A stretch of 64,000 nucleotides of DNA from Cellulomonas xylanilytica (lineage in GTDB: Bacteria; Actinomycetota; Actinomycetes; Actinomycetales; Cellulomonadaceae). Below, piece after piece: positions 37,156-64,000 of this stretch (within the stretch, counting starts at the first letter, position 1; each line of letters starts with the position of its first letter). Below the pieces are notes generated by a model. The model saw only the letters and a list, made by a program, of their open reading frames with translations. It had not been told where the DNA came from and made no database searches. Where the stretch lies: assembly GCF_007989805.1 (NCBI RefSeq), contig NZ_BJUB01000004.1, forward strand, positions 124,001 to 188,000. The letters run 5' to 3'. A program made the position numbers and the translations under genes.

Positions 37156-37166
37156 GAGGCGACCCC

Positions 37167-43643: not shown

Positions 43644-45338
43644 ATGGCGACGCTCGTCGTACCCGGGGTTCAGGTCGAGACGAGGTTCGACGTCCTGCCA
43701 CCGCTGCCGGCGTCGTCGGGCGTGGTCGGCATCGCCGCGATCGTCGACCGACCACCGACGCCGACGGCCCTCGTGGGCCTCAGCCGGGCTGCCGAGATCC
43801 ACGGCAACCTCGGACCCGGCACGGTGGCCTCGGCTCCCGAGATCGTGCACGCGCTCGGCAACGGGGCGTCGGAGGTGCTCGTCGCGCCCGTCGGCGGCGG
43901 CGGGGCCGCCTCGCTCGTCCTGCGCAACGCGGTGTCCACCGACGCGGTGCTGCTGCGGGCGCGGTCCGTGGGCACGTGGGCCCACCAGGTCGCGGTCGAC
44001 GTGCGCACCGTGCTCAACGCCGCGGGCGAGACCGTCCGGGTCAGCCTGCGGGTGTTCCGCGCCGGCCAGGTGGTCGAGGAGTTCGCCGACCTCGTGGTGG
44101 AGCCGGGCTCGCACCAGGACCTGTTCAACACCCTCAACACCCGCTCGCTCTACCTCGTCGCGCTCGACCCGTCGCTCGCCGACGGCCTGCCGACCGCGGG
44201 GACGTACGTGCTCCCGGCCGACGGCACCGGGGTGGCCGTCCAGCGCAGCGGTGTCGCGCAGACGCTGTTCACGCTGCTGCCCGAGCCCGAGGTCGATCCC
44301 ACCGGGCTGACCGTGGAGATCCTGTCGCCCTCGGCGGACAACGTGCGCGTGCGGGTGTTCCGCGACGGTGCGCAGGAGGAGGAGTTCACGCGCCTGACCA
44401 TGAACCCCGACTCGGCGAACTACCTGCCTGCGGTGATCCTGCGCGAGAGCGCCCTCATCCACGTGGTCCAGGCGTCGTCGCTCGCGGCGGCGGACCGGCT
44501 CCCCGTCGCCATCAGCCCGACGCTGCTCAGCGGCGGCACGTCCCCGTCGGCGGCCGACTACCAGGACGCCATCAACCTCCTCGGCGAGGACCCGCGCATC
44601 AGCCTCGTGCTGGCCGCCCTCGAGCCGACGCGCACCGAGGCGTTCGTGCAGACCGTGCACCAGGCGCTCGTGGCGCACGCCGTCGCACAGTCCGACGCGG
44701 GCGCCCCGCGCATCGCGTTCGGGTCCGTCACCGCCGTCGAGCAGCCGAGCCTCGACCGCATCCGCGACCACGCCGCGGGCGTGCGCAACCGGCGCTTCGT
44801 GCTCGTCAGCCCGGCCGGTGCCGCAGGCGCGGTGCTCGGCGCGATCGCCCGCACGGGTCCGTCCGTCTCGCCGACGTTCAAGCCGGTCCCCCTGTTCGGG
44901 CTCACGCCGGCCAAGTACTCCGACAGCGAGCTGAACCGTCTCCTCGGGCCGACGCACAACGTCGTGGTCGTCGCGGCGCGGGCGGGCCGGGGCGTGATCG
45001 TGCTGCGCGGCCTGGACACGAGCGGCGACCAGATCTCGGTCACCCGCGTGGCCGACGCGTGCGTGCGCGAGGTCAAGGCCATCGCGGAGAACTTCATCGG
45101 CCAGCTCAACACCGTCGACGCCCGCACGGCGCTGCGCCAGCAGATCGTCGCGACGTTCACCCGCATGGAACGCGCGGGCGAGCTGGTGCCGTCGACCGAC
45201 GGGACCGACCCGGCCTTCCTGGTCGACGTGTACTCGACCCAGCTCGACTTCGCCCAGGGCAACGTCCGCATCGACATCGCCGTGCGCCCCGTCCGGGCCA
45301 TCGACTTCGTGTACGCCACCATCCGCGTGAAGAACTGA
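43644..45338 (+). CDS. Contractile tail sheath protein
   Basis: 564 residues, GGAGG five bases before the ATG. The N-terminus (MATLVVPGVQVETRFDVLPP) and the C-terminal 200 residues match phage/eCIS sheaths. The C-terminal arm contains GRGVIVLRGLDTSGDQISV, KAIAENFIGQLNTVDARTAL with a following helix, and the closing FAQGNVRIDIAVRPVRAIDF strand that links neighbouring subunits. The sheath surrounds the tube and contracts to drive it through a target envelope. It is the first gene of the cluster and single copy; many eCIS carry two or three sheath paralogues, myophages one. Confidence 0.85.
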   Translation: MATLVVPGVQVETRFDVLPPLPASSGVVGIAAIVDRPPTPTALVGLSRAAEIHGNLGPGTVASAPEIVHALGNGASEVLVAPVGGGGAASLVLRNAVSTDAVLLRARSVGTWAHQVAVDVRTVLNAAGETVRVSLRVFRAGQVVEEFADLVVEPGSHQDLFNTLNTRSLYLVALDPSLADGLPTAGTYVLPADGTGVAVQRSGVAQTLFTLLPEPEVDPTGLTVEILSPSADNVRVRVFRDGAQEEEFTRLTMNPDSANYLPAVILRESALIHVVQASSLAAADRLPVAISPTLLSGGTSPSAADYQDAINLLGEDPRISLVLAALEPTRTEAFVQTVHQALVAHAVAQSDAGAPRIAFGSVTAVEQPSLDRIRDHAAGVRNRRFVLVSPAGAAGAVLGAIARTGPSVSPTFKPVPLFGLTPAKYSDSELNRLLGPTHNVVVVAARAGRGVIVLRGLDTSGDQISVTRVADACVREVKAIAENFIGQLNTVDARTALRQQIVATFTRMERAGELVPSTDGTDPAFLVDVYSTQLDFAQGNVRIDIAVRPVRAIDFVYATIRVKN

Positions 45339-45348
45339 GAGGCACGCC

Positions 45349-45729
45349 ATGCCCACCGTGTACGCAGCCAACGAGAGCTCCGTCCTGGTCAACGGCACCG
45401 CCGTCGAGGGGGTGCGCTCCGTCGAGCACCGCTCCACGACCGTCCGTCAGGACCTCTACGCGCTCGGCTCGTCCGAGCGGATCGGGGTGGTCACCGGCCC
45501 GCGCAACGTCGAGGGCCGCATCCGCGTGGCCTCGTCGGCACCCGACCTGGACGGGCTGGTCGGCGACGACTTCTTCCAGATCACCGCGCCGCTGCGGCAG
45601 GGCGGCACCACCGTGACGGTCAGCTTCGACGAGTGCCTGCTCACCGAGAAGTCGTTCACGATGAGCGCGGGCGGCCACGGCGAGACCGTGTACGCGTTCA
45701 CCGCGACGCGCGTGCGCGAAGAGCGGTGA
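45349..45729 (+). CDS. Tail tube protein (probable)
   Basis: 126 residues, 10 bp after the sheath gene with GAGAGGC upstream. It is all-beta in character: ANESSVLVNGTAVEGVRSVE at the start, IRVASSAPDLDGLVGDDFFQ in the middle, and SFTMSAGGHGETVYAFTATR at the end. Size, position directly after the sheath, and strand pattern fit the small inner-tube subunit that stacks as hexameric rings. It is rather shorter than Mu-type or Afp1-type tubes. The call depends mainly on context. Confidence 0.65.
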   Translation: MPTVYAANESSVLVNGTAVEGVRSVEHRSTTVRQDLYALGSSERIGVVTGPRNVEGRIRVASSAPDLDGLVGDDFFQITAPLRQGGTTVTVSFDECLLTEKSFTMSAGGHGETVYAFTATRVREER

Positions 45730-45741
45730 GGTCACCCCACC

Positions 45742-47043
45742 ATGAGCGGTCCGGTCAGGCTCCTCGCGGGTGACGGGCACGTGCGCGTCGGCGCCGCGAC
45801 GTTCCCTGGTGGGCCCCTGCCCGACGGGCGCGTCGGGCTGCTCGGCGTGGCGCTGCGCAGGCTGGCGCTCGCCGAGCGTGACCAGCTGGTCGCGCTCGCG
45901 GAGGACGACCCGCGCGCGCTCGGCCGGCTGGTCGGTGGCGCCGCGAGCGACACCGAGCTCCCGGACGACGACCAGGCGGTGGCGGCGATCGAGGCCGTCG
46001 CGCTGGACCTCGCCGGGGCGTCGCACGACGGGCCGCTGGCCCGGACCCGCGTGCTGACGGCCCGCGCCGTGGGGCCGGGGGCCGACGGGCTCGCCGCCAC
46101 GGACGCGGACGACCTCGCGGCGGAGCTCGCCCGCGCCGTCGAGCAGGACGACGGGTGGACCCGGATCCCGCTCGGCGACCTGTGGGACGACGAGTCGGGC
46201 GAGCCGTCCGAGGTGCGCGACCGGCTCGCCCGGGCGCTGCTCGACCGCGCGCGGCAGCCGCTCGACGTGACCCTCGTCCGCCGGCTGCTGGTCGAGGGCG
46301 TCGGCCCGGAGCCGCAGAGCCCGGTCGCGGTCGGCCTCCCGCTTCCTCGGCCGGCAGCGACAGCCCCGACGACCCGCCCGTGGACCGCGCCGTCCGTGGA
46401 GCACGGGCAGTCCGGAGGGCCGACGACGACGCCTCCTGCCTCCTGGGTCCGCGCCGGCGGGACCGCGACAGCGACCGCCTCGGACCGCGCCGCGCCGGAC
46501 CCAGAGGCACTCACGACCGGGTCCCCAGGGACGCCGGGCGTGTCGGGCGCATCAGGCGCGTCGGGCGCGACCGGTGCGGCGGGACCGCTGGGGCCGGCCG
46601 GGATCGGGGGCGACTGGCCCCACCCGAGCGCGGCACAGCGCCTCGGCACGGGCGTCCAGCAGGTCTCCGCACCGACGCCCGGCGCGCTCGCCGGGCCGTG
46701 GGCCGCCGCGACACCGTCCGCGCCCACGGTCGGGTCCCCGTGGGTCGCGTCCGACCGATGGGGTGCGCCGGTCGCCGTCGGCGCGCGACCGTCCGCCCCG
46801 ACGGGCCCGGACGCGCGGTCGCCGTGGAGCACCGCGCCGCCGCTCGCGGCGACGACAGCGCCGGCCTGGTCACCCTCCTCGTCCCTGGACGCACTGGCTG
46901 CGACGACCGGCCCGGCGTCGGGTGCGCAGCCGGCCGCAGTCGCCGGGCGCGTGGCTCCGGCTGCCGTCGCGGCCCGCGGCTCCGTCGACGACGTGGCGCT
47001 CGCTCTGCACCGCGCGGCCGACCTGCGCGGGGTGCGGCGATGA
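45742..47043 (+). CDS. Tail-cluster protein with helical head, Ala/Pro/Ser-rich body and collagen-like run
   Basis: 433 residues, GAGG nine bases upstream. Residues 1-195 are compositionally normal: a small beta opening, then helices such as GVALRRLALAERDQLVALAE. Residues 196-410 are Ala/Pro/Thr/Ser-rich and probably disordered. Residues 260-290 contain ten consecutive Gly-X-Y triplets (GSPGTPGVSGASGASGATG onward), a collagen-like stretch. The final 25 residues form a helix. It sits between tube and hub genes where phages carry tape-measure chaperone and tape-measure genes, yet resembles neither by length or composition. It overlaps the next gene (ATGA). I do not recognise a family. Confidence 0.6.
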   Translation: MSGPVRLLAGDGHVRVGAATFPGGPLPDGRVGLLGVALRRLALAERDQLVALAEDDPRALGRLVGGAASDTELPDDDQAVAAIEAVALDLAGASHDGPLARTRVLTARAVGPGADGLAATDADDLAAELARAVEQDDGWTRIPLGDLWDDESGEPSEVRDRLARALLDRARQPLDVTLVRRLLVEGVGPEPQSPVAVGLPLPRPAATAPTTRPWTAPSVEHGQSGGPTTTPPASWVRAGGTATATASDRAAPDPEALTTGSPGTPGVSGASGASGATGAAGPLGPAGIGGDWPHPSAAQRLGTGVQQVSAPTPGALAGPWAAATPSAPTVGSPWVASDRWGAPVAVGARPSAPTGPDARSPWSTAPPLAATTAPAWSPSSSLDALAATTGPASGAQPAAVAGRVAPAAVAARGSVDDVALALHRAADLRGVRR

Positions 47044-47708
47044 GCGAGACCGCGGCGCGCCCGATGCCCGTCATCGGCGACGTCACCCTGACCGCCGCCC
47101 AGCGCGTCGACCACGCCCTCGATGCCGGGTTCGTCGACGTGCCGGTGCTGGGCCTGCAGGGTCACGCGCAGCAGCGCAGCGGACGCCCGAGCCACCGGGT
47201 GGCGATCGCCGCGCTGCTCACCGGTCCCGCCGCGCTGGACGACCTGGGAGCGCTGCAGACGCTCGCGGCGTCGGGTGAGGCGACGACCTTCACCGCGGAC
47301 ATCGTCACGGCCCTGGACCTCCAGCAGGTCGTCGTCACCCGTCTCGCCGCCCGCGAGGTGGCCGGTCGGCCCGGTGTCGTCGAGATCCACCTCGACCTCG
47401 CGGAGAGCCCTCCCCTGCCGCCGCCCGCGCAGCTGTCCGGGTTCGGCGGGCTCGACGACTTCGGTCTCGGCGACCTCGGCTTCGACACCGACCTGCTCGG
47501 CGACCTGGCCGACCTCGCGTCCGACGTCGCGGGAGCCGTGGAGGGTGCGCTCGCGGCCGTCGACGCGCTGTCCGCGCTCGCCGGTCTCGCCGACCTCGAC
47601 TTCGACGGCCTCCTCGCCCCGGTCCAGGACGTGACGCGCTCGATCGAGAGCGCGGGCGGGCAGCTGGGCACCGCGCTCGAGGCGCTCGGCGAGGTGTTCG
47701 GCACATGA
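47040..47708 (+). CDS. Tail hub-region protein with DNA-circularisation-N-like domain (Mu gp43-like)
   Basis: 222 residues; the ATG overlaps the previous stop. Residues 10-120 (FVDVPVLGLQGHAQQRSGRP, then HRVAIAALLTGPAALDDLGA, then VEIHLDLAESPPLPPP) follow the pattern of the N-terminal domain of Mu gp43-type proteins, which link the tube to the baseplate hub. The rest is Asp/Leu/Ala-rich and helical (LGDLADLASDVAGAVEGALA). Its place before a gpD-like hub gene matches the order in Mu-like phages. The homology is weak and the call is partly from synteny. Confidence 0.55.
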   Translation: MSETAARPMPVIGDVTLTAAQRVDHALDAGFVDVPVLGLQGHAQQRSGRPSHRVAIAALLTGPAALDDLGALQTLAASGEATTFTADIVTALDLQQVVVTRLAAREVAGRPGVVEIHLDLAESPPLPPPAQLSGFGGLDDFGLGDLGFDTDLLGDLADLASDVAGAVEGALAAVDALSALAGLADLDFDGLLAPVQDVTRSIESAGGQLGTALEALGEVFGT

Positions 47709-48727
47709 CGCTCACCACCAGCGCGACCGTCACGCTCGACGACCTGCGCTACACCGTCCAGGTCCGGTCGGTCGCGGCCGAGCTCACGCTCCTGCCCGGG
47801 GTCAACCGCGTCGAGGTCGCGATCGCCGCGGGCGTCGACGTCCCGGCGGCCGCGGGGTCCCGCGCGAGCGTCGAGCTGGACGGCGGGGACGGCGGGGCGG
47901 TCGTCGTCACCGGCGTCGTGGACCACCTCGAGCGCGCCACGACCGGCGCGGTCGTCGTCATCACCGACGCGGGTGCCGCCCTCGCCGCGGCGCGGCCCGC
48001 CGAGACCTACAACGGGCTGACCGGCGTGCAGGTCGTCGGCAGGCTCGCGGACCTGGCGTCGGCGGACACCGGCCTGATCGCGGCGCTCACCCAGACGGCC
48101 GCCTACGTGGCGGACCCGCGGCGGACCGCCGCCGAGCACGTCGCCGCCATCGCACGCCGCTCGGACGCGGTCGCCGCGGTCGACGCCGACGGGCGGCTCA
48201 CCGTGGTGGCGTGGCCGGTGGGGCTGCCGACGGCGGCGATGCGCCTCGACCGGGAGTTCACGTCGTTCACCACCTCGGCCCACCAGCCCGGGCACGACTT
48301 CGCGCCCGTCGGCGCGGGCGGGTCCGGGGCGGCGCTCGCGCCGGACGCCTGGGTGCCCAGCACGGACGCGGTCACCGGCGCCGACGACCCGGACGCGTCC
48401 CGCAGCTGGAGCCCCGACGCGGTGCTGCGCACCCGGACCGACGTCGACCTCGCGGCCCGCGGCGCGGCGAGCAGGCGTGCGGCGGCCACCATCCGCATGC
48501 GCGGCACGTGCTGGCTCCAGCCGGCGCGCCGGCCCGGCGACGTCGTCCGGATCGACGAGACGACGTCCGCGGACCAGGCCGGGCCGTGGCTGCTGGTCTC
48601 GGTCCGTCACGAGCTGGCCCCCGGTGTGGCGACGACCGTCCTGGAGGGTGTCGCCGCCGGCGCCGCCGACGACCTGCTGGGCGGGCTGCTCGGCGCGGCG
48701 CTGGGCGGAGTGGGAGGACTGCTGTGA
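47705..48727 (+). CDS. Baseplate hub protein (phage late control D / Mu gp44-like)
   Basis: 340 residues; ATG overlaps the previous stop. Beta-rich N-terminal half (VRSVAAELTLLPGVNRVEVA, VVTGVVDHLERATTGAVVVI), then TAAEHVAAIARRSDAVAAVD, a typical inner helix of gpD/gp27-like hubs, and a C-terminal WLQPARRPGDVVRIDETTS strand region. Gp27-like hubs form the trimeric adaptor between six-fold tube and three-fold spike. The next gene is the spike protein, consistent with phage and VgrG order. Confidence 0.7.
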   Translation: MTLTTSATVTLDDLRYTVQVRSVAAELTLLPGVNRVEVAIAAGVDVPAAAGSRASVELDGGDGGAVVVTGVVDHLERATTGAVVVITDAGAALAAARPAETYNGLTGVQVVGRLADLASADTGLIAALTQTAAYVADPRRTAAEHVAAIARRSDAVAAVDADGRLTVVAWPVGLPTAAMRLDREFTSFTTSAHQPGHDFAPVGAGGSGAALAPDAWVPSTDAVTGADDPDASRSWSPDAVLRTRTDVDLAARGAASRRAAATIRMRGTCWLQPARRPGDVVRIDETTSADQAGPWLLVSVRHELAPGVATTVLEGVAAGAADDLLGGLLGAALGGVGGLL

Positions 48728-49380
48728 CGGACCTGCTGTACGACGCGGTGGCGCGGATCGCGCGGCACGAGGCCGACGCGCGCTCCTGGGTCACGATCGG
48801 CACGGTGACCGAGGCGCACACCAGCGTCGCCGGCGGCCACGACCACGCGGTGAGCGTCGAGCTGCGCGACAGCGGCGTGGTGGTCCCCCGGCTGCCCGTG
48901 GCCGTCGGGGCGCTCGGCCTCGTCGCGATCCCGGCCGTCGGCGACCTCGTCGTCGTCGCGTTCGCGGACGGTGACCCGCACGCGGGCATCGTCGTCGGCT
49001 GCCTGTACCACCGCGACCTGCGCCCTCCGGAGCACACCACCGGCACGCTCGTGCTGCAGCTTCCCCCGGGCTCGGACGACCCGGCGATCGACCTCCAGGT
49101 CGACCCGGCCGCACCGGTCCTGACGCTCACCGTGGGAAAGACCGTCATCGAGCTGGCCGAGGACAAGGCCACCGTCACCATCGGCGACTGCGAGCTCGTC
49201 GTCGACGGCGCCTCGCCCGGCACGGTGACCGCCAAGGCCTCGGACAGCGTGCTGACGCTCGGCGGCAACGGCGAGGTCAGCATCGAGGCCTCGGCCAAGC
49301 TCACGCTCACGGCGCCCGAGATCGTCATCGACGGGTCGAGCAAGGTCAAGATCTCCGGCGCAGCGGTGGAGATGAACTGA
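48724..49380 (+). CDS. Baseplate spike protein (gpV/gp45, gp5-like OB fold)
   Basis: 218 residues from GTG overlapping the hub stop (GTGA). Residues 20-100 are an OB-fold with VVPRLPVAVGALGLVAIPAV followed by GDLVVVAFADGDPHAGIVVG, the signature of gp5/VgrG/gpV spikes. The remaining 100 residues are a repetitive beta stretch (VTIGDCELVVDG, LGGNGEVSIEASAKLTLTA, IVIDGSSKVKISGAAVEMN) that should wind as the triple-stranded needle. With the PAAR protein encoded next, it makes the puncturing tip. Confidence 0.88.
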   Translation: MTDLLYDAVARIARHEADARSWVTIGTVTEAHTSVAGGHDHAVSVELRDSGVVVPRLPVAVGALGLVAIPAVGDLVVVAFADGDPHAGIVVGCLYHRDLRPPEHTTGTLVLQLPPGSDDPAIDLQVDPAAPVLTLTVGKTVIELAEDKATVTIGDCELVVDGASPGTVTAKASDSVLTLGGNGEVSIEASAKLTLTAPEIVIDGSSKVKISGAAVEMN

Positions 49381-49781
49381 TGGGCACCCCCGTGGTCGGC
49401 AAGAACGCCAGCGTGGTCGCGGTCGACACGCACATCGTGCTCGTCCCCACGCCCGCGGGCAGCGTGCCGACGCCGCTGCCGCACCCGTTCGTCGGTGCGG
49501 TGACCAGCGCGACGGTGCCGACCGTCAAGGTCGGCGGCCAACCGGTCGCGACGCTCGACAGCGTGGCGAAGAACAACCCGCCGCACATCGCGATGCCGCC
49601 GGGCGTCTCGTTCCAGTCGCCGCCGTCCGACGAGGGGACCGTCACGCAGGCGTCGAGCACCGTGACGATCGGCGGCAAGGGCGTCGCGCGCGTCGGCGAC
49701 CAGGTGACGACGTGCAACGACCCGGCCGACCAGCCGGTGGGCACGATCGTCGGACCGGTCGGGACGGTGAGTGCCGGATGA
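49380..49781 (+). CDS. PAAR-type spike tip protein
   Basis: 133 residues; ATG shares its first base with the spike stop (TGATG). Pro- and Gly-rich beta sequence: VVLPTP-type turns, PLPHPFVGAVTSATVPTVKV, NNPPHIAMPPGVSFQSPPSD and GGKGVARVGDQVTTCNDPAD, with His and Cys residues suited to a tip metal site as in PAAR cones. Such proteins sharpen the spike and can attach effectors. Its size and single-domain form argue against a fused toxin. Confidence 0.75.
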   Translation: MGTPVVGKNASVVAVDTHIVLVPTPAGSVPTPLPHPFVGAVTSATVPTVKVGGQPVATLDSVAKNNPPHIAMPPGVSFQSPPSDEGTVTQASSTVTIGGKGVARVGDQVTTCNDPADQPVGTIVGPVGTVSAG

Positions 49782-50230
49782 GCGACGTCCTCGGCACCGA
49801 CCTGCGCGTGCTGCTCGGCCCCCCGGCGATGGGCGCCCACGACAGCGCCCCGCTGGACCTGCGCATCGGCGCCGGGGTGGTCGACCGCACGCTCGACGGA
49901 CCCCAGCTGCTCGACGGCCGGCACAACCTGGGCCAGGCCCTGGTCCTGCGCCTCCTCACCCCGCGCGGCGCGCTCGCCGACCTCGGCCACGGCGACTACG
50001 GCTCACGGCTGCACGAGCTGATCGGCGAACCCCGGAACGAGACGAACCGCGCCCGGTGCAAGGCGTTCGTCCTCGAGGCCGTCGCCGCCGAGCCCCGGGT
50101 CCTCGACACCGTGGTCGGGCTCGAGTTCGACCTCGGGTCCGAGGGGCCGTCCGAGCTGCGCTTCGTGCTCACCGTCCAGCCCGTCGAGGGCGGCGAGCCG
50201 CTCACCGTCGGACTGGGGGTGGACCTGTGA
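49778..50230 (+). CDS. gp25-like baseplate wedge protein (GPW/gp25 family)
   Basis: 150 residues; ATG overlaps the PAAR stop. Family features: GRHNLGQALVLRLLTPRGAL, then LGHGDYGSRLHELIGEPRNE, then NRARCKAFVLEAVAAEPRVL. These match the T4 gp25 / P2 gpW / Mu gp46 core, which joins the wedges to the sheath and triggers contraction. The equivalent of the conserved EPR motif appears as AAEPRVL. The strongest neighbour support is the gpJ-type gene directly downstream. Confidence 0.88.
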   Translation: MSDVLGTDLRVLLGPPAMGAHDSAPLDLRIGAGVVDRTLDGPQLLDGRHNLGQALVLRLLTPRGALADLGHGDYGSRLHELIGEPRNETNRARCKAFVLEAVAAEPRVLDTVVGLEFDLGSEGPSELRFVLTVQPVEGGEPLTVGLGVDL

Positions 50231-52014
50231 CCGGCCTGCCGGACGGCTTCTCGCCGCGCCCCTACCCGGAGATCGTGCGCGACACCCTGACGACCCTCAC
50301 GGGAGGCACGGTCCGCGAGGTGGTGACCGTCCCGGCCGGCGAGCTCGTGGTGCTCGACACCCTCGCCGACCGCCCGATCCGCCGGGTCAGCCACCTGCAG
50401 GGCGTCGTCGACGTGGTCCGGCCGCTGCGCGACGCCAACGGCGACGTCGTGCGCGACACCCAGGGCGCCGCCGTCAGCGAGACGGTCCCGGTGCCGTACC
50501 GGTTCACGGACGCCGACTTCGAGGTGGTCGCCACCGGCCAGAACGGCACCGAGCGGGACGCCATCCGGTTCCGCCCGACGGGTCGGCGCCCGCCCACGGG
50601 CTCGACGGTCGTCGTCAACTACTACCCGTCGCAGGCGCGGCCCGCCCCCGTCACGGACCTCAACGTCGGGTCGGTCGCGCGGACGCTGCTGGAGTCGGTG
50701 GCGCGCGAGCTGGCCCTCGTGGAGCTCCAGCTCGACGCGGTGTACCGCTCGGCCTACCTGGACACGGCGCAGGGCACCTCGCTGGACAAGGTGGTCGCGC
50801 TCGTTGGGGTGACGCGCCGGCCCGGCGGCGTGCCGACCGTCCGTGTGCGGTTCGCCCGCGCCGCCGGATCGACCGGCCGGGTCGCCGTCCCGGTCGGGAC
50901 CGTGGTGTCCGACGCGGACAGCAACCGCTACGCCACGACCGTGCCGCTGGTGCTCGAGCCGGGCGAGGACTCGCGCGAGGTGCTCGCCGCCGCTGTCTCC
51001 CCCGCGACGCCGGCCGCCGCGGCCGGTGCGCTGGACCGGCTGGAGGTGCTGATCGCCGGGGTCGGCACCGTGACCAACGAGTCCCCCGCCGCCGCCGCGG
51101 GCAGCGCCGAGACCGACGACGACCTGCGACGCCGGTCCCGCGGCGCGCTCGCCGTGGCCGCCCGGGGCACGCTCGACGCGCTGCGCCTCGGCGTGCAGAA
51201 CATCGAGGGCGTGCTCGACGTGACCGCGACGGAGTTCCCGCACGGGGTCCCCGGGGAGGTCGCCCTGTCGATCAGCTACGACGGCGAGCCGACGCCCGAG
51301 CTCCTCGCGCTCGTCCGCGAGCGCATCGACGACCTGCGCCCGGCCGGGATCCGGGTGAACCCGGTGAGCACGGCGCAGCAGCCGGTCCAGGTCACGGCGA
51401 CGGTGGTGCTGGCCGGGTCCGGGGTCGGCGGGGCGGAGCTGGTGTCGCTGCAGGAGGCGCTCGAGGAGCGGGTGTCCGCCGTGCTGCGCGACGTGCCGCC
51501 GGAGGGCACGGCCCGGCAGGGGCCGTTGTCGGCCGCGGCGCTGTCCGACCCGCGCGTCGTCGACGCGACCTTCACGCTCTCCCTCGGCGGTGACCCGCAG
51601 CCGAGCGTGACGGCACCGGCCGGCACCGTGCTGGCGCCGGTCCGGCCGTTCACCCTCCTGGTCACCACGGAGAGCGGCGCCGGGCCGAGCGCCGACGTCC
51701 TGGTCGACGCGCTCGTCCCGCTGCACCTGGCGCCGGGTGTCACGGCGGCGGACGCCGAGCAGGCCCTGAGCCTCGCGGCACGCTCGTGGGCGGCGACCCT
51801 CGGCGCCGGGACCGCGGTCACGGTCGACGGCTTCATCGCGGCGGTGCGGGACGACACGCGCTACGCGGTGGTGCGGGCGGACGTCGCGCTGACCACGGAG
51901 GCGGGTGAGCGCTTCCTGCGGCTCGGTGACGGTCTCGGGGCGCATCCGGTGGGCACCGACGACAAGGTCGAGATCCGTTCCGTCGCCCTGGACGTCCGGG
52001 AAGGCGGTGCGTGA
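50227..52014 (+). CDS. Baseplate J / gp47-like wedge protein
   Basis: 595 residues from GTG overlapping the gp25 stop. The central core is typical of Baseplate_J: VRFARAAGSTGRVAVPVGTV, AAAAGSAETDDDLRRRSRGA and LRLGVQNIEGVLDVTATEFP, then VALSISYDGEPTPELLALVR and RIDDLRPAGIRV. An N-terminal 200-residue extension and a C-terminal domain of about 120 residues are longer than in P2 gpJ, more like eCIS Afp11-type proteins. It forms the outer wedge of the baseplate. Confidence 0.85.
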   Translation: MTGLPDGFSPRPYPEIVRDTLTTLTGGTVREVVTVPAGELVVLDTLADRPIRRVSHLQGVVDVVRPLRDANGDVVRDTQGAAVSETVPVPYRFTDADFEVVATGQNGTERDAIRFRPTGRRPPTGSTVVVNYYPSQARPAPVTDLNVGSVARTLLESVARELALVELQLDAVYRSAYLDTAQGTSLDKVVALVGVTRRPGGVPTVRVRFARAAGSTGRVAVPVGTVVSDADSNRYATTVPLVLEPGEDSREVLAAAVSPATPAAAAGALDRLEVLIAGVGTVTNESPAAAAGSAETDDDLRRRSRGALAVAARGTLDALRLGVQNIEGVLDVTATEFPHGVPGEVALSISYDGEPTPELLALVRERIDDLRPAGIRVNPVSTAQQPVQVTATVVLAGSGVGGAELVSLQEALEERVSAVLRDVPPEGTARQGPLSAAALSDPRVVDATFTLSLGGDPQPSVTAPAGTVLAPVRPFTLLVTTESGAGPSADVLVDALVPLHLAPGVTAADAEQALSLAARSWAATLGAGTAVTVDGFIAAVRDDTRYAVVRADVALTTEAGERFLRLGDGLGAHPVGTDDKVEIRSVALDVREGGA

Positions 52015-53285: not shown

Positions 53286-53294
53286 GAGGACACG

Positions 53295-54753: not shown

Positions 54754-54765
54754 CGAGGAGTCGCC

Positions 54766-56448: not shown

Positions 56449-56451
56449 CCC

Positions 56452-57336
56452 GTGCTGACGGAGCTCGAGTCCCGGCTCGCGGACGTGCTGGGGGCGGCAC
56501 TCCCGGCACCGTTCGGCGGCCGGGTGCGCCGCCTGGGTGCACCCGCACCGGCCGGGCCGGGACCCGTCGTGCGCCTCGGCGTGCAGGGCTGGACGCCGCT
56601 CGAGCCGGACGTCTTCTCGACCCGCCCCGAGCTCGGCGCCGGCGCCCCGACGCTGCGCCGCGTGGTGCGGCTCCGGGTGGACATCGGGCTCGACGTGGCC
56701 ACGGACCCACCGGGTGACCGGCTCGGCGAGCTCGCGGGCGCCGACGCGCTGCTGTACGCGCTCCAGGACCCGGGCGTCCGCACGGCGACCGCCCTGGTGG
56801 CGCCCGGAGACCAGGGGTTCCGGCTCGACAGCCTCGAGCTGGCGCCGGTCGGCGAGCAGGACGACGACCCCGACGTGCTGGTGCGTGCCGAGGGCTGGTT
56901 CTGGCCCGTGGGCGTGCCCGGTCAGGAGGGCCGCGAGATCGCCCGCGCGCTCGTCCGCGAGGTGCGCCTGCCCGTGCGGCTCCTGCTGGGCGCCGCCCTC
57001 GAGGCCGGCGGACCGGAGGTCACCTGCGACCTGGTGTTCGGGGCGACCGGCACGCTCGACGTGTCGGCCGGCCCGGCGGTGGCGGCGCCGTTCGGGGCGG
57101 TGGCGCTGCGGGTGCTCGACGCGGGCGGTGGCCCCGGGGTCGGCGTGCTGGGCGCCGACGGGTCCCCGTCCGGCTCGACGGTCGTCGCGGTTGTGGAGGG
57201 CGCCGGCACCACGTTCACCTACACACCCCCGGCCGCGGCGGCGCGCGAGCACCTCGTCGTCCTCGCGCACGCGGGCGACGGCGGCGACGCGCGGACCGGC
57301 ATGGAGCTGGCGCGGTTCGAGCTGGTGACGCCGTGA
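56452..57336 (+). CDS. Unrecognised tail-cluster protein with beta sandwich C-terminus
   Basis: 294 residues from GTG 56452, four bases after the previous stop. Residues 1-185 alternate strand and helix (VRLRVDIGLDVATDP, LYALQDPGVRTATAL, VLVRAEGWFWPVGVPGQEGR), a pattern like head-tail or tail-completion adaptors. The last 100 residues look like an Ig/fibronectin-like beta domain ending MELARFELVTP. I do not recognise a family. It overlaps the next gene (GTGA), so it belongs to the same operon. Confidence 0.5.
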   Translation: MLTELESRLADVLGAALPAPFGGRVRRLGAPAPAGPGPVVRLGVQGWTPLEPDVFSTRPELGAGAPTLRRVVRLRVDIGLDVATDPPGDRLGELAGADALLYALQDPGVRTATALVAPGDQGFRLDSLELAPVGEQDDDPDVLVRAEGWFWPVGVPGQEGREIARALVREVRLPVRLLLGAALEAGGPEVTCDLVFGATGTLDVSAGPAVAAPFGAVALRVLDAGGGPGVGVLGADGSPSGSTVVAVVEGAGTTFTYTPPAAAAREHLVVLAHAGDGGDARTGMELARFELVTP

Positions 57337-58772
57337 CCGCGCTCGCCGTCGGCACCGCGGCCGCAGTCAGCGTCACCCTCGACACCGTCGCGCTGCTGCC
57401 CGCCGTCGCGATCACCCCCTCGGGCCTGCAGCTCACCACCCCGTGGCGCGCGGTGACCGGAGCCACCGGGGCGCGCGTCGCGAGCGCCGTGCTCACGGTC
57501 GACCCCGTGACGCACGGCTCCGGCCGGGACGTCGGGACCGTCAGCCCGGGCGCGACCGGCGTCCAGACCCTCACCGTCCGGCCGCCGGACCCCGCAGTCC
57601 CGACCCGCGCGCTCACCATCCCGGGCCTGCCCGCCGTGCTCGACGCCAACCCGGCCCTGCGCGTCGTGGTGCAGCAGGGCGGGCAGCCGGTGGTCGCCGT
57701 CCCGCCCCTGCCGGGCAACGGACAGCTCCTCCCGGCGCAGCTCACCGGCGGGTCCCGGTCCGGGGCGCAGGTCACGGTGCCCGACCTGCTGGGCACCCTC
57801 ACGGTGAGCGTCGCGCTCGGCAGCACGCTCCAGGACCTGGTGAAGCAGCCGTTCACGCACCAGGACGTCCGCCTGCGCGTCGCCCCCATGCCCGTCGGGG
57901 TGCACGTGCTCGGCCCCGACGGCGACGAGCAGCTCGCGGTCCCCGGGCCGGTCCGCGCCCGGATCACCCACGACCTCGCCCCCGCGCTCCAGCGCCACCT
58001 CACCGCGGCGGTGACCGCCGCACCCGGCGGCACCGCGCCGATCACCGTGCGCAGCGACGCGCAGGGTGAGGCCCGGCTGCAGCTGCGCGTGGACGGGGTC
58101 GTGATCGAGCGCACGCTCGACGGACGCCTCACGGTCGAGTGCGACGGCGCCCCGACGACGGTCGCCCGACCGGGACCACCCCCCGGCCGCCCCCCGACGC
58201 GCACCGTCGCCGACGTCACGATCACGCACCACGGCGCCGCGATCCACCCGGCCTCCGACCCCGTGCCGGCGGTGGACGCGGACACCGCCGGTCTCGCCGT
58301 GCGCGACGCACCGGTGGTCCGCCGGATCGCGGCCGCGACGCTCGCGGGCGAACGGGTCGCGCGTGTGGCGGTCGTCGGCTGGCCCCACGGCGAGACGGAC
58401 CTCGCGCTCGTGGTGGCCGGGCGGAGCCTGACCCGCACGGCGCTGCCGGCGGCCGACGGACGCACTCCCGCACGGGTCGTGTGGTTCGACCTGGGCGAGC
58501 CCGCAGCCGTGGAGGGGCCGCTGGAGCTCTCGCTGCGGGCGACCCGCGGGGCGTTCCGGTGGCTCGCAGCGCCGGAGCCCGCCTGCCGGATCGCCGTCGC
58601 GACCGCGCCCGAGGGCACGCACGTCACCGTCGGCGGGACCACCGTGGCGCTGACCGGCGCCGAGACGCACGTGCCGGCGGCGGTGCTCGACGGCGTCGAC
58701 GGCTGGGTCGTCGCGACCGACCAGCTGTGCGCGGTCGCGCTGTCCGGCGCCGTCATGGAGTTCGCGCCGTGA
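57333..58772 (+). CDS. Unrecognised beta-rich tail-cluster protein
   Basis: 479 residues; GTG overlaps the previous stop. It is almost wholly beta in character with many Val/Thr/Ala strands (AVSVTLDTVALLPAVAITPS, VGVHVLGPDGDEQLAVPGPV, VLDGVDGWVVATDQLCAVAL) and a Pro-rich hinge near residue 275 (PGPPPGRPPTR). There is no signal peptide and no catalytic motif. Several Ig-like or carrier domains on a tail-like particle surface would fit. Function unknown. Confidence 0.5.
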   Translation: MTALAVGTAAAVSVTLDTVALLPAVAITPSGLQLTTPWRAVTGATGARVASAVLTVDPVTHGSGRDVGTVSPGATGVQTLTVRPPDPAVPTRALTIPGLPAVLDANPALRVVVQQGGQPVVAVPPLPGNGQLLPAQLTGGSRSGAQVTVPDLLGTLTVSVALGSTLQDLVKQPFTHQDVRLRVAPMPVGVHVLGPDGDEQLAVPGPVRARITHDLAPALQRHLTAAVTAAPGGTAPITVRSDAQGEARLQLRVDGVVIERTLDGRLTVECDGAPTTVARPGPPPGRPPTRTVADVTITHHGAAIHPASDPVPAVDADTAGLAVRDAPVVRRIAAATLAGERVARVAVVGWPHGETDLALVVAGRSLTRTALPAADGRTPARVVWFDLGEPAAVEGPLELSLRATRGAFRWLAAPEPACRIAVATAPEGTHVTVGGTTVALTGAETHVPAAVLDGVDGWVVATDQLCAVALSGAVMEFAP

Positions 58773-58782
58773 GGGGGCCGTC

Positions 58783-61700
58783 GTGACGCTGCTGGACGAC
58801 CTGTCCGCCCTGGACCTCTCGTCGATCCTCGACGCGAAGGTCGACATCGCCGTCGCGCTGGACACCGACGACCTGCAGGCGCTGCTCGGCGACGGTGCCG
58901 TGGCCGGGGTGCTGGGCGACCTGGGCACCGTCGTGCAGACCGCGCGCGCCGCGGTCGACGACCCCGCCGCGCTGGTCGAGCCTCTCGCGGAGGCCCTCAC
59001 CGGGCTGCTGGACGCGCTCGGTACCGACCTGCCCGTGACGCAGTACGCCGCCGCGGTCGCCGACGGAGCGCGGGTGATCGCGGCCCTCATCGGTGCGCTC
59101 TCCGGCGACCCGCTCCGCCTGAGCCTGCCGGGCTCGCTCGACGCGGGCGCCGCCCTGGGCAAGGTCGCCGACGGCCTGGGCGACCACGCGAGCGTCGTCT
59201 CCGGCGGTCTCGCGCGCGTCCAGTCGCTCGTCACGCAGGTGGACCAGGGCCTGCCGTCCGACCCGGGCGCGCTGGTCGGGATCGCGATGGAGATCCTGCT
59301 GCCCTTCGGCGCGTCGGTCGTCGACCCGGTGCGGTCGTGGTCGACCACCCTCGACGCGCAGCTCGCCCGCGTCCGGATCGACCCGCGGCTCGGCGACGGG
59401 CTCGTGGTCGCGCTCGGGCGCCTGCGGGTGGCCGCCGACGCCGGCGACGTCGAGGCCGTCCGCACCGCGCTGACGACGCTCGACCAGGTGCGCACCGCGA
59501 CGGTCGCGCAGCTCGCGTCGGCGCTGCGGACCGCGACCGGCGTCCTGTCCACCACGCGGGTCGGCGACCTGGCCGCGCCCGTGCGCGCGCTGCGCGGCGC
59601 CCTGTCGACGGTCGAGCAGGGCGCGCTCGACGTGCTCGACGACTGGCGCGGGATGGTCGCCGACGCCCGGGGCTTCGTCGACGGCCTGGATGCCCAGCAG
59701 GCGATGGACGCGGCCCGGGACCTCATGGACCAGGTCGAGCAGGCCGCGCGCGAGATCGTCCTGGGCGCGGTCGACGGCTCGGTCGAGGTGGTCAAGGGCT
59801 GGCTGCGCGACCTGCTGCGCGAGCTGCCCCTGCGGCCGCTGCGCCAGGCGCTCTCGGACGCGATCGCCCGGCTGGCCCGCACGATCGACGACGCCGACCT
59901 CGACGCCCCCGTCGTCGCGGTGCGCGCGACGCTCGCGGAGGTGGCTCAGACGCTCGCGGCCGCCGACCCCGCCGCGCTCGTCGCCGCCGCGGTGGACAAG
60001 CTCGAGCAGGTCGTGCGCGACCTCCTCGACACGCTCGAGGGAGCGCTCGGGCAGATCACGGCGGGGGTCGAGGCGGTCGCCGGAGAGGCCCAGGTCGTCC
60101 TCGAGCGCGCCGTCGCGGGCCTGCGCGCGTTCTCGGAGGCGGCGACGGCGATCGCCGCCGCGGTCGGTGGCACCCAGATCACGGACGCCGCGGCGGCCGT
60201 GACCGCCCAGCTCCGCGAGCTGCGCGAGGAGGTCAGCGCGGTGCTGTCGACGGCCGAGCTGCCCGAGCCGTTGCGTGCCGGGGTGGACCAGCTCGTCTCG
60301 CTGCTGGAGTCCATCGACCTCGACGACGCCGTCCGCCGGCCGCTCGAGGGGGCCGCCGCCGAGCTCCGGGTGCCCGACGGGGTGGGCGCCACCGTGCGTG
60401 ACGGCCTGCAGGCGGTGAGCGACGCCATCTCGTCGCTGGTGCCGACCGACCTCGTCGCGGACCTCGACGCGATGCTCGCGGACGCGCTCGCCGAGCTGGG
60501 CTCGCTCGACATCTCGTCGCTGACCGCCGGCGTCACCGAGGTGCTCGACGACGCGGCGTCGGCGCTCGAGCAGGTGCACGTCGCCGAGCTCGTGGCGCCG
60601 GTCAGCGCGGTGTTCGCCCAGGTGGTGGGCGCGGTGGACCGGGTGCACCCCCGGGTGCTGCTGGCCCCGGCGATCGACCTGTACCGGCAGATCACCGGCG
60701 CCATCCCGGTGCCCAGCCCGGACGTGATCAGCACCCGCGTGGGCACCGTGGCGTCGCAGGCGGGCGAGGCGGCGGCGCGTGCGGCCGTCGAGCCGACCCT
60801 GGGGGCCGTCGGGGTCGGCGGGTCCAACGCGTCCCCCGACCGCCCGCAGCCCGCTCCCCCGACCGACCTGCGCCTCGGCGACATCGTGCGCCTCGTCGGC
60901 TACCTGCCGGCCCGGCTGCGCGAGGCGCTGGCCGACCTCGGCGACGGACCCGTGGGCGAGGTCCTGGCGAGCCTCGAGTCGGCGACGGCCGGCACGGCAC
61001 GGACGCTGCGGGCGACCCGCGACCGGCTGCTCGGTCTGCAGGCCGAGATCGACCGGGCGCTGGACGTCGCACTCGCGCCCGTCGCGGCCGCCCAGCTGGA
61101 CGCCCAGCTGGCGCTGCGCGGCTCGGCCGCTCTGACCGCGGGCGGCCTGGACGTGTCGGTCTCCGTGGACCTGGTCGGGGCGGCGTCGCCCGGTGCGCTG
61201 CTGGGCGCGGTGCAGGGAGATCTCGCGCAGGTCGCCGCCGGCGCCCGCGGGCTGTCGTCGGCACTGACCGGGACGGTCGCGGACGACCTCGACACGGTCG
61301 CGGACCTGCTCGAGACTGCACTGCCGTCGGCGCTGCTCGCCGACGTCGACGGCCTGCTCGCGGCCCTCGACCCCGAGCCGCTCGCCCTCGAGCTGGACGC
61401 GTTCTTCGCGTCGCTGGTGGCCGCGATGCCCGCCTTCCTCGGTGCGGCGGGCGCCGCGCTCCAGGAGCTGGTCGCGCGGGTCCGGGCGCTCATCGACGAG
61501 TTCAACCCCGGCACCCTCGCGCAGCGCTACCTCGCGGTGATCGACGTGGTGCGCGAGGAGCTGGCCCTGCTGGACCCCGCCCGGCTGGCCGACGAGCTGG
61601 GCGAGGTGCACGCCGTGGTCCGCGCGACGATCGCCGCGTACGACCCGGCCGTGCTCGCCGGTGACCTCGACGGCCTGATCGCCCAGGTCGCGGCAGCCGT

Positions 61701-62016
61701 CCGAGGGTTCGACCCGGCCGGCCTCATGCCCGACCTGTCGGGGGTCGCCGCGCAGGTCGCCCGGGTGTCCGACCTGCTGCCGATCGCCGCGCTCGAAGGT
61801 GTCGGCACCCAGCTGGTCGCGGTGGGCGACGAGCTCCGCGAGCTCGACGTCGACGGGATGCTCGCGACCATCGACGCGATCCCGCCGCAGGTCGCCGACG
61901 CCGCCTCCACGCTGGTCGAGGCCGTGCGCGACGAGCTCGTCGCCCTGCTGGAGTCGATCAGGTACGCGGGCGCCGGGGCTTCCGGGTCCGTCTCCGTCTC
62001 GGGCTCCCTGGGGTGA
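58783..62016 (+). CDS. Giant helical protein, tape-measure candidate
   Basis: 1077 residues from GTG 58783 with GAGGGGG upstream. It is nearly all helix, Ala/Leu/Asp/Val-rich, built from loosely repeated 30-50-residue units such as LVEPLAEALTGLLDALGTDL, VRDLLDTLEGALGQITAGVE and LADELGEVHAVVRATIAAYD. A Ser/Pro-rich break falls near residues 685-700 (GGSNASPDRPQPAPPTD). It ends with a Ser/Gly tail. Length, helicity and low complexity are those of tape-measure proteins; at 0.15 nm per residue it would set a tube of about 160 nm. Tape-measure genes normally follow the tube gene, whereas this one is next to the Rhs-like gene, so a chaperone or scaffold for that protein is an alternative. Confidence 0.55.
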   Translation: MTLLDDLSALDLSSILDAKVDIAVALDTDDLQALLGDGAVAGVLGDLGTVVQTARAAVDDPAALVEPLAEALTGLLDALGTDLPVTQYAAAVADGARVIAALIGALSGDPLRLSLPGSLDAGAALGKVADGLGDHASVVSGGLARVQSLVTQVDQGLPSDPGALVGIAMEILLPFGASVVDPVRSWSTTLDAQLARVRIDPRLGDGLVVALGRLRVAADAGDVEAVRTALTTLDQVRTATVAQLASALRTATGVLSTTRVGDLAAPVRALRGALSTVEQGALDVLDDWRGMVADARGFVDGLDAQQAMDAARDLMDQVEQAAREIVLGAVDGSVEVVKGWLRDLLRELPLRPLRQALSDAIARLARTIDDADLDAPVVAVRATLAEVAQTLAAADPAALVAAAVDKLEQVVRDLLDTLEGALGQITAGVEAVAGEAQVVLERAVAGLRAFSEAATAIAAAVGGTQITDAAAAVTAQLRELREEVSAVLSTAELPEPLRAGVDQLVSLLESIDLDDAVRRPLEGAAAELRVPDGVGATVRDGLQAVSDAISSLVPTDLVADLDAMLADALAELGSLDISSLTAGVTEVLDDAASALEQVHVAELVAPVSAVFAQVVGAVDRVHPRVLLAPAIDLYRQITGAIPVPSPDVISTRVGTVASQAGEAAARAAVEPTLGAVGVGGSNASPDRPQPAPPTDLRLGDIVRLVGYLPARLREALADLGDGPVGEVLASLESATAGTARTLRATRDRLLGLQAEIDRALDVALAPVAAAQLDAQLALRGSAALTAGGLDVSVSVDLVGAASPGALLGAVQGDLAQVAAGARGLSSALTGTVADDLDTVADLLETALPSALLADVDGLLAALDPEPLALELDAFFASLVAAMPAFLGAAGAALQELVARVRALIDEFNPGTLAQRYLAVIDVVREELALLDPARLADELGEVHAVVRATIAAYDPAVLAGDLDGLIAQVAAAVRGFDPAGLMPDLSGVAAQVARVSDLLPIAALEGVGTQLVAVGDELRELDVDGMLATIDAIPPQVADAASTLVEAVRDELVALLESIRYAGAGASGSVSVSGSLG

Positions 62017-62020
62017 CGCC

Positions 62021-64000
62021 ATGACGACGACCGACCTGCCCACCGGGCCCGCGCTCGGCACCGCCACCGAGACCCTCGTGCTGCCCGGCGCGGGCGTCCT
62101 CGAGCTCGAGCGCGACGGGTCCTCGGGCGTGCTGGTCGCGCTGCGCGGCGGGGGCCGCGACTACCTGACGGTGGCGCGCGACGGCGTGCGCACGTGGCAC
62201 GGCGTCTGCACGGTCGCGGACCGGATCGGTGAGGGCTCCCTGCTGCGGGACGTGCGACCCGTCACCGCGGCGTCGTTCACCGAGGAGTACCGCTGGACCG
62301 GGGACGACCTCACCCTCGTCGACGGCGTCGAGGTGCGCCGGGACGCGGTCGGCCGGGTGGTGGCGTGCCTGCCCGGCGGCGCCTCCCACGCGGACCGGGC
62401 GCCGTCCACCCACCGCTGGTTCTACACGCACGACGACCGCGGACTGGTCGAGGTGCGGGGGCCCGGCGTCGGACGTCGCCTGGCGCTCGGGCCGGACGGC
62501 CGCGTGCGCGCGGTCCTCACCGAGACGGGCACGACGGCACCGGCCTACGACGCGCGCGGCCACCGGACCGCCGCGACCCGGCCCGCGCGGGACCACGTGG
62601 ACGCCGAGGGACGCACGTGGGTGGTGCGGGACGGCTCCGGCGGCGTGCGCGCGGTCTACCTCTGGGACGGGATGCGCTGCCTGGCCCGCATCGACGGCCC
62701 CCTCGGCGCGCCCACCGCCGCCGTGTTCAGCCTCGACCCGTCCGGCACCCCCGTGCGCGTGGTCGGCCCGGGGGGCGTCACCCGGATCCCCCGCGACGCC
62801 TACGGCGAGGGTCTCCTGGCCCATCCCGGTGTCCCCGGCCTGTTCGGCGGCTTCGTGCACGCCGGTCTCGTGCACCTGCCGCTGCGGCGGCTGGACCCGG
62901 CGACGGGCACGTTCTGCGAGCCCGACCCGCTCGACGGGGGCGACGCCGACCCGCGCCGGCCGGACGGCTTCGAGGGTCCCCTGCCGGTCGAGAGGGAGCC
63001 GCGGTCGGCCTACGAGGTGTGCCGGGGCGACCCCGTGGGCCGCTCGGACCCGACGGGCGGTGTCTCCGCGGGCCTCGTGCTGTCCACGCTCACCTGGTCG
63101 TTCCAGAACAACATCCTGTCGTTCTTCGGGATCGACTGGTGGTTCAACCTGTTCCTCAGCCTGATCGTCGCCCCCTTCAAGGGCGTCGGCGGCGGCATCG
63201 ACTACGACTTCTTCAGCTCGACGGGCCTGTCGTCGACGGACCGGCTCGGCTCGTTCGGGGTGCGGCGCGACGGCTTCATGAACGTGATCACGGGCGGCCG
63301 CGCGTTCACCACGCAGCACATCGTCTGGAGCCCCGACAGCGAGTTCGCGCTGCTGGAGCGCGGGGAGGTCGTCGACCCGCGGGGCCGCTACGAGCCCACG
63401 CACTACGGCACCGTGCTGGCGCTGGCCCCCACCGGTGCCGCGACGTCGTTCCTGGCGTGCGGTCCGACCGACGCCCCGTGGCTACCGGGCACGCTGCCGG
63501 CGTGGTCCCGCCACGGCGGCCCCGGTGAGGCGGTGGCACCCGGCACCCTGACGCCGTGGTTCCCCTCCGGCGGGCTGCACCTGGATGCCCCGCGCATGGA
63601 CACGCGGCGCGACGTCCAGAGCACCCTGACCGAGCTGCGCGCCGGCGCGGTCGCGATCGGCGACTTCGAGGTGCGGACCGTCCTGGCGGCCTCCGCACCG
63701 ACCGGGCTGGCGGCGGGCGCGCTCGTGCTCGTCGACGACGGCACGGCGCTCGCCATGGCGACCGTCGTCGCGGTGGTGGCCTCCGGCGGCGGCGAACGCC
63801 TGCAGCTCGCCGAGAATCTGGCCCTGACCGGCACCCCGCTGCGCGTGACCCCGCTGGCCGCCGCGCCCGCGTCCTCGGAGCCGCGGCCGGCCGGCGGGCC
63901 CGCGGACTCGCTCGACGCCCGCGGGACGACCACGACGTACGCGGCGGGCGACCTCCTGCGCCTGACGGCCTCGACCGGCGAGGTCCTGGTCGCGCGCGTG
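62021..64000 (+). CDS. Rhs/YD-repeat-like protein, 3' end cut by window edge
   Basis: The frame from ATG 62021 stays open for 660 codons to the right edge with no stop. Residues 1-265 have YD-repeat-like beta units (GRDYLTVARDGVRTWHGVC, YDARGHRTAATRP, YLWDGMRCLARIDGPLG). Residues about 270-347 resemble the Rhs-associated core: PGLFGGFVHAGLVHLPLRRL, DPATGTFCEPDPLDGG, then a YEVCRGDPVGRSDPTGG ending like the DPxG boundary before Rhs toxin domains. After it comes an aromatic hydrophobic segment (about 358-387, NILSFFGIDWWFNLFLSLIV) and 270 or more residues of unfamiliar beta-rich sequence. Rhs proteins encapsulate or carry toxic C-termini. Being four bases after the tape-measure candidate, it may be the payload or tip of the contractile machine. 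The end, and so any toxin, is outside the window. Confidence 0.7.
   Translation, partial: MTTTDLPTGPALGTATETLVLPGAGVLELERDGSSGVLVALRGGGRDYLTVARDGVRTWHGVCTVADRIGEGSLLRDVRPVTAASFTEEYRWTGDDLTLVDGVEVRRDAVGRVVACLPGGASHADRAPSTHRWFYTHDDRGLVEVRGPGVGRRLALGPDGRVRAVLTETGTTAPAYDARGHRTAATRPARDHVDAEGRTWVVRDGSGGVRAVYLWDGMRCLARIDGPLGAPTAAVFSLDPSGTPVRVVGPGGVTRIPRDAYGEGLLAHPGVPGLFGGFVHAGLVHLPLRRLDPATGTFCEPDPLDGGDADPRRPDGFEGPLPVEREPRSAYEVCRGDPVGRSDPTGGVSAGLVLSTLTWSFQNNILSFFGIDWWFNLFLSLIVAPFKGVGGGIDYDFFSSTGLSSTDRLGSFGVRRDGFMNVITGGRAFTTQHIVWSPDSEFALLERGEVVDPRGRYEPTHYGTVLALAPTGAATSFLACGPTDAPWLPGTLPAWSRHGGPGEAVAPGTLTPWFPSGGLHLDAPRMDTRRDVQSTLTELRAGAVAIGDFEVRTVLAASAPTGLAAGALVLVDDGTALAMATVVAVVASGGGERLQLAENLALTGTPLRVTPLAAAPASSEPRPAGGPADSLDARGTTTTYAAGDLLRLTASTGEVLVARV

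Follow-up and report, generated by a model that had tools for sequence, protein, structure and literature searches.

A block of 17 co-directional genes in the genome of Cellulomonas xylanilytica (4.44 Mb, 23 contigs) would encode a complete headless contractile particle and appears, with a probability that we put at roughly three in four on the strength of gene content and profile comparisons, to represent an actinomycete lineage of its own among contractile injection systems (CIS), with a mosaic baseplate. The block (genes g1 to g17) occupies positions 43644-67993, on the plus strand, of the window analysed (64,000 nucleotides, positions 124001-188000 of contig C4); its genes mostly abut or overlap, and its 3' end reaches 4 kb past the window end. 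Sequence was taken 38 kb beyond that end; up to ~85.6 kb (window coordinates) the translations were inspected by eye, and further on gene coordinates were called without identifying products. Genes were called with a simple gene caller, domains were sought with Pfam and PHROGs profiles, and folds with AlphaFold2 (AF2) models and Foldseek.

The sheath, hub, spike, PAAR, gp25 and J genes lie in the order that a preliminary description of this DNA had proposed, which Pfam and PHROGs matches confirm. The contractile sheath g1 (43644-45338, 564 amino acids (aa)), 76-91% identical in five relatives, matches the tail sheath family phrog_279 at 3.4e-22 and the Pfam domains Phage_sheath_1 and 1C at 4.5e-6 and 2.6e-5; searching the sequences of solved structures with it gave nothing useful, that is, two matches with E of 0.51 and 0.63, the second being a protein of 7b5h, the cyanobacterial thylakoid CIS (tCIS). 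The GPD-like hub g5 (47705-48727; Phage_GPD 6.5e-6) and the oligonucleotide/oligosaccharide-binding (OB) fold spike g6 (48724-49380; Phage_base_V 3.3e-7) are separate genes, followed by the PAAR tip g7 (49380-49781; PAAR 2.6e-9), the gp25-like wedge g8 (49778-50230; phrog_975 2.4e-12, Pfam 0.0011) and the baseplate protein J, g9 (50227-52014, 595 aa; Baseplate_J 1.6e-20, phrog_6 5e-36), which also matches phage wedge proteins among solved structures (3.8e-11 at best). Four of the 17 proteins pass a Pfam cut-off (Phage_base_V, PAAR, Baseplate_J and, with 22.2 bits for a cut-off of 22, eCIS_core in g17), both sheath domains, GPD and gp25 falling under it. Sheath, tube, hub/spike and wedge genes thus occur together, with no head or packaging genes among the neighbours scanned (the tube being placed by position and a weak fold), which is what qualifies the block as a CIS.

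The headless character rests on a survey of the surroundings. No portal, capsid, terminase, holin or integrase was found in a Pfam scan of 13 upstream proteins and 10 downstream frames (one of which, L008:13131-14078, is probably spurious), in agreement with what had been noticed earlier. In PHROGs searches at 1e-5, none of ten neighbours matched a head, packaging or lysis family, three of them matching families of the kind 'other' or 'unknown function', and in the translations read by eye to ~17.6 kb past the block no head or integration genes were recognised. Head genes directly to the right, named beforehand as the mark of an ordinary prophage, did not occur; a convergent BTAD regulator gene (3.6e-14), which overlaps g17 by 14 bases, is found there with ordinary genes (LPG-synthase-type, dodecin, GH3, Hsp20, DJ-1, APH-family, IMS/DNA polymerase IV-type and GGT). 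To the left, the neighbours are of housekeeping type, as first described: uracil-DNA glycosylase (UDG, 3.4e-33), arginase (3e-28), CBS, HpcH and others. An intact prophage was rejected, since linked capsid, portal, terminase and integrase genes were not found among the scanned neighbours.

Conservation extends to the block as a whole. The sheath g1 was found in five of 221 family genomes, all of one genus (Cellulomonas), and a J scan of genome contigs pointed to four loci, in C. persica, C. gelida, C. uda and Humibacillus xanthopallidus; the complete set of 17 genes, open and colinear, occurs in C. xylanilytica, four further Cellulomonas and Humibacillus. With g12 as family marker, profile matches were obtained in 2/396 order genomes (C. 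xylanilytica and G232), 1/396 phylum genomes (C. xylanilytica), 1/24 genomes of the family of G232 (G232 itself) and 6/394 class genomes (C. xylanilytica, G232, G1154, G1109 and two weak partial matches), and because so few genomes match, the block is rare. G1021 and G1253, tried as further clusters, shared only a short g12 segment, with no family-profile match within ~20 kb, and were dropped from the counts. In G1154, of the same class and another order, profiles recover 14 of the 17 genes and position adds the other three; the contigs of G232 and G1109 both start at g4, with g4-g17 present in the former (14/14) and g4-g13 matched in the latter. Flanks differ among C. xylanilytica, the other four Cellulomonas (mutually alike by eye), Humibacillus, G232 and G1154, and since the same genes recur in differing flanks, it is probable that the whole block has moved together, which supports the earlier view of a domesticated CIS of unfamiliar layout. 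BTAD genes adjoin six of the nine clusters (at the right end in five Cellulomonas, at the left end in G1154) and were not seen beside the blocks of Humibacillus, G232 (whose left side is off the contig) or G1109. The ratio dN/dS was below 1 in 51/51 comparisons (17 genes, three pairs), with a maximum of 0.58 (g3). A search of plasmids with the sheath gave no match, and no block member was confirmed on viral contigs, where pattern scans reach close relatives only. Around the Humibacillus copy (G967:C1:858001-906000), transposase- and recombinase-like genes were seen by eye.

Two canonical extracellular CIS (eCIS) clusters occur in the same genome, on contigs C1 (~359-382 kb) and C5 (~212-240 kb), so that this 4.4-Mb genome holds three contractile machines. 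The C1 locus is clear from Pfam (sheath 3e-21, AAA 6e-25, CIS_tube/LysM 1.4e-20, gp19 1.4e-32), and C5 was identified from sheath and J matches and by eye. Like these systems, the block encodes a headless contractile tail with related PAAR, spike, gp25 and hub proteins, a cap-like g14, a last gene with marginal eCIS_core and a BTAD neighbour, BTAD being an eCIS shell domain (PMC8213781). Family profiles, compared here and below in bits and not in E-values because the target sets are small, score 67.3 (PAAR), 53.2 (spike, to the C1 VgrG), 25.4 (hub, to the C5 VgrG), 23.2 (gp25) and 22.1 (sheath) against canonical eCIS proteins; g7 is 40% identical over 103 aa to the C1 PAAR protein, and columns 53-173 of the hub profile align with residues 65-186 of the C5 VgrG. 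Unlike them, the block gave no AAA+ ATPase among g1-g17, no LysM/CIS_tube in g3, g4 or any other gene (both at E up to 0.1, the C1 positive control reaching 1.4e-20) and no gp19-type tube match, so that the initial listing of a single sheath and a single tube, without LysM or AAA+, holds. The fused VgrG-type hub-spike (Afp8) was not found, hub and spike being split, whereas C1 and C5 each have one VgrG of 572/587 aa, which matches both hub and spike profiles in C5 and the spike profile in C1. The separation of PAAR from the spike, first thought distinctive, is not, since PAAR is also a separate gene in the C1 cluster and in the halovirus HSTV-4.

The C1 and C5 sheaths match best in phrog_23 (6.3e-79 and 4.8e-77), and those of the block type in phrog_279 (3.4e-22 here, 4.2e-17 in G1154), with cross-matches of our sheath to phrog_23 (8.6e-8) and of the C1 sheath to phrog_279 (1.8e-5). 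Against canonical eCIS the J profile reaches 11.4 bits at best, to a gene in P2_I position, and against HSTV-4 it scores 107.5 bits, ahead of spike (17.2), I (16.7), sheath (12.5), PAAR (10.7), tube (4.8) and gp25 (3.2). HSTV-4 has the same order hub-V-PAAR-gp25-J-I-fibre and a clearly homologous J, but it is a virus with terminase, portal, capsid and integrase, its tape measure precedes the hub, and g3, g4 and g11-g17 have no convincing counterpart in it. Against too stark a phage reading of J, the canonical C1 J also matches phrog_6 (4.8e-19), the C5 J (called from an internal start) giving no match. We read the baseplate as a mosaic, eCIS-like on the spike side and phage-like in J and I.

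Could the block simply be an ordinary, diverged member of a catalogued eCIS subtype? That PAAR, spike, hub, gp25 and sheath profiles all score higher against the canonical eCIS of the same cell than against HSTV-4, that the C1 J and sheath touch phrog_6 and phrog_279, and that eCIS_core, BTAD and cap-like genes are eCIS-associated (PMC8213781) speak for this; the missing AAA+, LysM/CIS_tube and gp19 matches, the split hub and spike, the Pfam sheath domains under cut-off and a J far closer to the halovirus speak against it, and we consider it unlikely. Since some eCIS features are present and others absent, the block would be a new variant of CIS and not a classified eCIS. In the literature, a C. 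fimi sheath of 523 aa (PMC9230969) is closer to the canonical 521-522 aa than to 564, and a fibre named from Cellulomonas sp000688475 (PMC12923769) may or may not come from such a cluster. No description of this cluster was found among the titles listed in a literature search, which covered neither subscription papers nor supplements.

A second alternative is a cell-anchored machine resembling a type VI secretion system (T6SS), or a purely intracellular one. It would sit well with the lack of lysis genes found and has precedents, as Streptomyces CIS act within the producer (PMC12237407, which together with PMC13277306 deals with Streptomyces CIS cargo and a membrane factor) and haloarchaeal CIS anchor to the membrane (PMC11566945). 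No convincing transmembrane helix was seen by hydropathy in the 17 proteins (one stretch in g6 falls within the OB region, and two further ones reach 1.91 and 1.94), and the fibre-like g11-g13 would suggest outside targets, which leaves this alternative doubtful. The archaeal system of Halogeometricum borinquense is also a headless CIS that secretes DUF4157-type cargo, and it differs in having an associated gene for a six-helix membrane protein and most of cis1-16 (PMC11566945). A T6SS proper has a two-protein sheath, ClpV and a TssJLM membrane complex, and was rejected on gene content (a single sheath gene, no ATPase and no convincing transmembrane protein in the block). An ATPase is also reportedly among the haloarchaeal cis genes, going by an abbreviation in a figure legend.

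An R-type tailocin, or the tail remnant of a recently lost prophage, is very improbable: the phage-like gene order shared with HSTV-4, the partial J matches in phage records and the transposase- and recombinase-like genes around the Humibacillus copy would fit it, but all genes are open and under purifying selection, no lysis gene was found, a giant Rhs/HExxH gene is present in eight of nine clusters read, g12 and the sheath are without phage match (at E 0.01 and 0.001, respectively) and those close-relative scans of viral contigs confirmed none of the block. The J matches concern 146 of 50,697 records in the phage collection, none over at least 80% of J length; Pseudomonas phages account for 124 and Halorubrum viruses for 18, and further comparison was limited to the haloviruses at the top of the list. 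Tailocins and P2 share with the block the concept of a headless tail, and against Mu/P2 the profiles score 24.7 bits for J (P2 J), 20.7 for gp25 (P2 W) and 8.4 for the hub (Mu); P2 differs in its holin/endolysin genes and in having no PAAR or Rhs annotated in the 24 of 33.6 kb viewed.

The last gene, g17 (62021-67993, plus strand, within the window to 64000), encodes a giant protein of 1990 aa with an Rhs-core trace (TIGR03696 at 0.0027, under cut-off, residues 281-346). The Rhs-like nature proposed from the start holds, the distant G1154 homologue matching Pfam RHS_repeat at 2.4e-13, and a HELxHxxQxxxWGP motif recurs in 8/8 homologues read. Its eCIS_core (DUF4157) match, marginal here, is above cut-off in 5/5 Cellulomonas, and according to PMC8213781 DUF4157 counts among the core eCIS domains, contains HExxH and is often accompanied by toxins at the 3' end of operons. 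Judging by these features, g17 is probably the payload of the particle.

How would such a particle work? Assembly, length control, cargo, release and target are all inferred. The baseplate (g4-g10) would assemble on the PAAR-tipped (g7) spike g6, the tube (g2) and the sheath (g1) would polymerise to a length set by g16, and g14 would cap the end; g11-g13 may form fibres or a collar that triggers firing, upon which sheath contraction would drive tube and spike through an envelope and deliver g17 as cargo, the BTAD (SARP-type) regulator probably controlling the operon. Our furthest-reaching interpretation, which is tentative, is that the block stems from a deeply separate or independent tail domestication in Actinomycetota, self-sufficient without AAA+ and LysM, and that this machine, which here stands beside two canonical eCIS in the same cell, delivers a single giant Rhs-metallopeptidase built into nearly every cluster.

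Two consequences would follow. Because just four of the 17 proteins pass a Pfam cut-off, this lineage could escape surveys that rely on finding a large number of known core genes, and real counts may be too low (in PMC8213781, operons were counted only with at least ten core genes). The block would also be a natural test of which eCIS parts (ATPase, LysM, fused VgrG) are dispensable, for which C. uda, where the block is the sole sheath locus found, would be a clean strain. This genome (listed as 100% complete, in ~100 contigs) gave no Pfam Phage_sheath_1 match, although that model misses the block-type sheath, so that other sheaths are excluded only if they are like g1 or like those of Pfam, and its one eCIS_core match is g17. 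Nor did it match PF22977, the WHD of eCIS-type ATPases, which matches in the other seven genomes searched; this absence is supportive, not proof, because the model misses the C1 ATPase of C. xylanilytica.

Several observations weigh against the particle that we propose. The tube, I, cap and tape-measure roles are assigned on weak or positional evidence: the g2 model is poor and in Mu/P2 the tube profile scores highest, with 7.8 bits, against P2 J and not against a tube, and g16 has no known tape-measure match (13.2 bits to Mu gpN, nothing to the Mu/P2 tape measures). The eCIS_core signal of g17 drops from marginal to 11 bits in Humibacillus, below cut-off, and gave no match in G232 and G1154, and G1109 has no recognisable g16 or g17 in the 20 kb read of its 30-kb contig. 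A DUF4157 protein encoded apart from the block may serve as payload in place of g17, since the genome encodes four strong DUF4157 (eCIS_core) proteins outside the block. Neither a lysis gene nor a predicted membrane anchor was found that would account for particle release.

Some of these points come with details of their own. In G1109 (11929-15156), the tape-measure place is taken by a 1075-aa gene of the other strand; the 706-aa gene after it has no family-profile match, and the cluster is possibly rearranged or differently armed. At C12:92263-96418 of C. xylanilytica, an AAA+ ATPase gene adjoins a strong eCIS_core gene on a contig where no sheath gene was found; two more eCIS_core genes (C1:183240 and C9:170678) are also apart from any sheath found.

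The remaining parts, all on the plus strand, are more loosely assigned. The 126-aa g2 (45349-45729), 78-96% identical in five relatives with dN/dS of 0.00-0.05, is placed as tube by its position after the sheath and a low-confidence model (mean predicted local distance difference test (pLDDT) 50.5), whose first nine Foldseek matches are phage or gene transfer agent neck, tail or baseplate entries (probability 0.93 at best, none with E below 0.001). Position and fold thus uphold the original tube claim in part, and sequence does not: the best PHROG match (3.1e-4, residues 11-62) is to a 'major head protein' family, profile scores against known tubes are weak or absent, the solved-structure sequence search was useless too, and the tblastn matches listed in phages all have E above 1. 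The Pro/Gly-rich g3 (45742-47043, 433 aa) has a collagen-like trace (Pfam Collagen 0.0013, under cut-off) and is the fastest-evolving gene of the block (dN/dS 0.44-0.58). By position only, g4 (47040-47708, 222 aa, 50-87% identity in six relatives) lies between tube and hub, where LysM/CIS_tube or gpN/gpU proteins sit; homology to LysM or gpN/gpU was rejected, with no database or hhalign support, and the solved-structure sequence search gave nothing useful. The gpI-like wedge or adaptor g10 (52014-53285, 423 aa), without Pfam or PHROG match, owes its name to the score against the halovirus I (columns 4-85 aligned), which leaves the gpI-type claim weaker than first stated.

Downstream, g11 (53295-53792, 165 aa) belongs to phrog_5417 (2.2e-19), of unknown function, with no tblastn match in phages at 0.01. 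The marker g12 (53806-54753, 315 aa, 51-88% identity in six relatives) is a fibre or collar candidate and g13 (54766-56448, 560 aa), which looks by eye to contain a coiled coil and has no Pfam match above cut-off, a fibre candidate; the g12 profile matches the N-terminus of g13 at 2.9e-4. Residues 110-165 of g12 recur there (54133-54300 and 54790-54954), accompanied by the HxH motifs GHDHP and QHEHP (noted by eye), which suggests duplicated trimer or collar modules. The 294-aa g14 (56452-57336), with a C-terminal immunoglobulin (Ig)-like domain, adds a cap/terminator candidate that the earlier parts list lacked: its AF2 model (pLDDT 68.3, predicted template modelling (TM) score (pTM) 0.48) matches in Foldseek the S. 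coelicolor CIS cap 9gts (rank 3, probability 1.00, E 3.2e-3, TM 0.30 over the query) and the PVC cap 9qgn (rank 17, probability 1.00, E 7.0e-3, TM 0.31 over the query), among many Ig, FnIII and nanobody chains and phage connector/neck entries, none with E below 0.001. Sequence searches for a relation to DUF4255/Pvc16 gave no match for g14, and the solved-structure sequence search nothing useful. After g15 (57333-58772, 479 aa, 34-67% identity in six relatives) comes the tape-measure candidate g16 (58783-62016), with 1077 aa in 5/5 Cellulomonas, 1084 in Humibacillus, 1101 in G232 (1060 with an alternative start) and 1100 in G1154; identity among these falls to ~25%, and a ruler protein would be expected to keep its length while its sequence drifts.

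Repeats in the region look like GC-rich codon background. The UDG gene on the left (42014-42625) carries the motif KRRLH, and not KRRIH, which we take to be that of UdgX. Further upstream (29215-41433) lies an aromatic-catabolism-like set, with biopterin hydroxylase, phenol-hydroxylase-type, thiamine pyrophosphate (TPP) enzyme, FAA hydrolase, aldehyde dehydrogenase, glyoxalase/dioxygenase-type and HpcH genes, which adjoins a GH16 enzyme with a ricin-type lectin.

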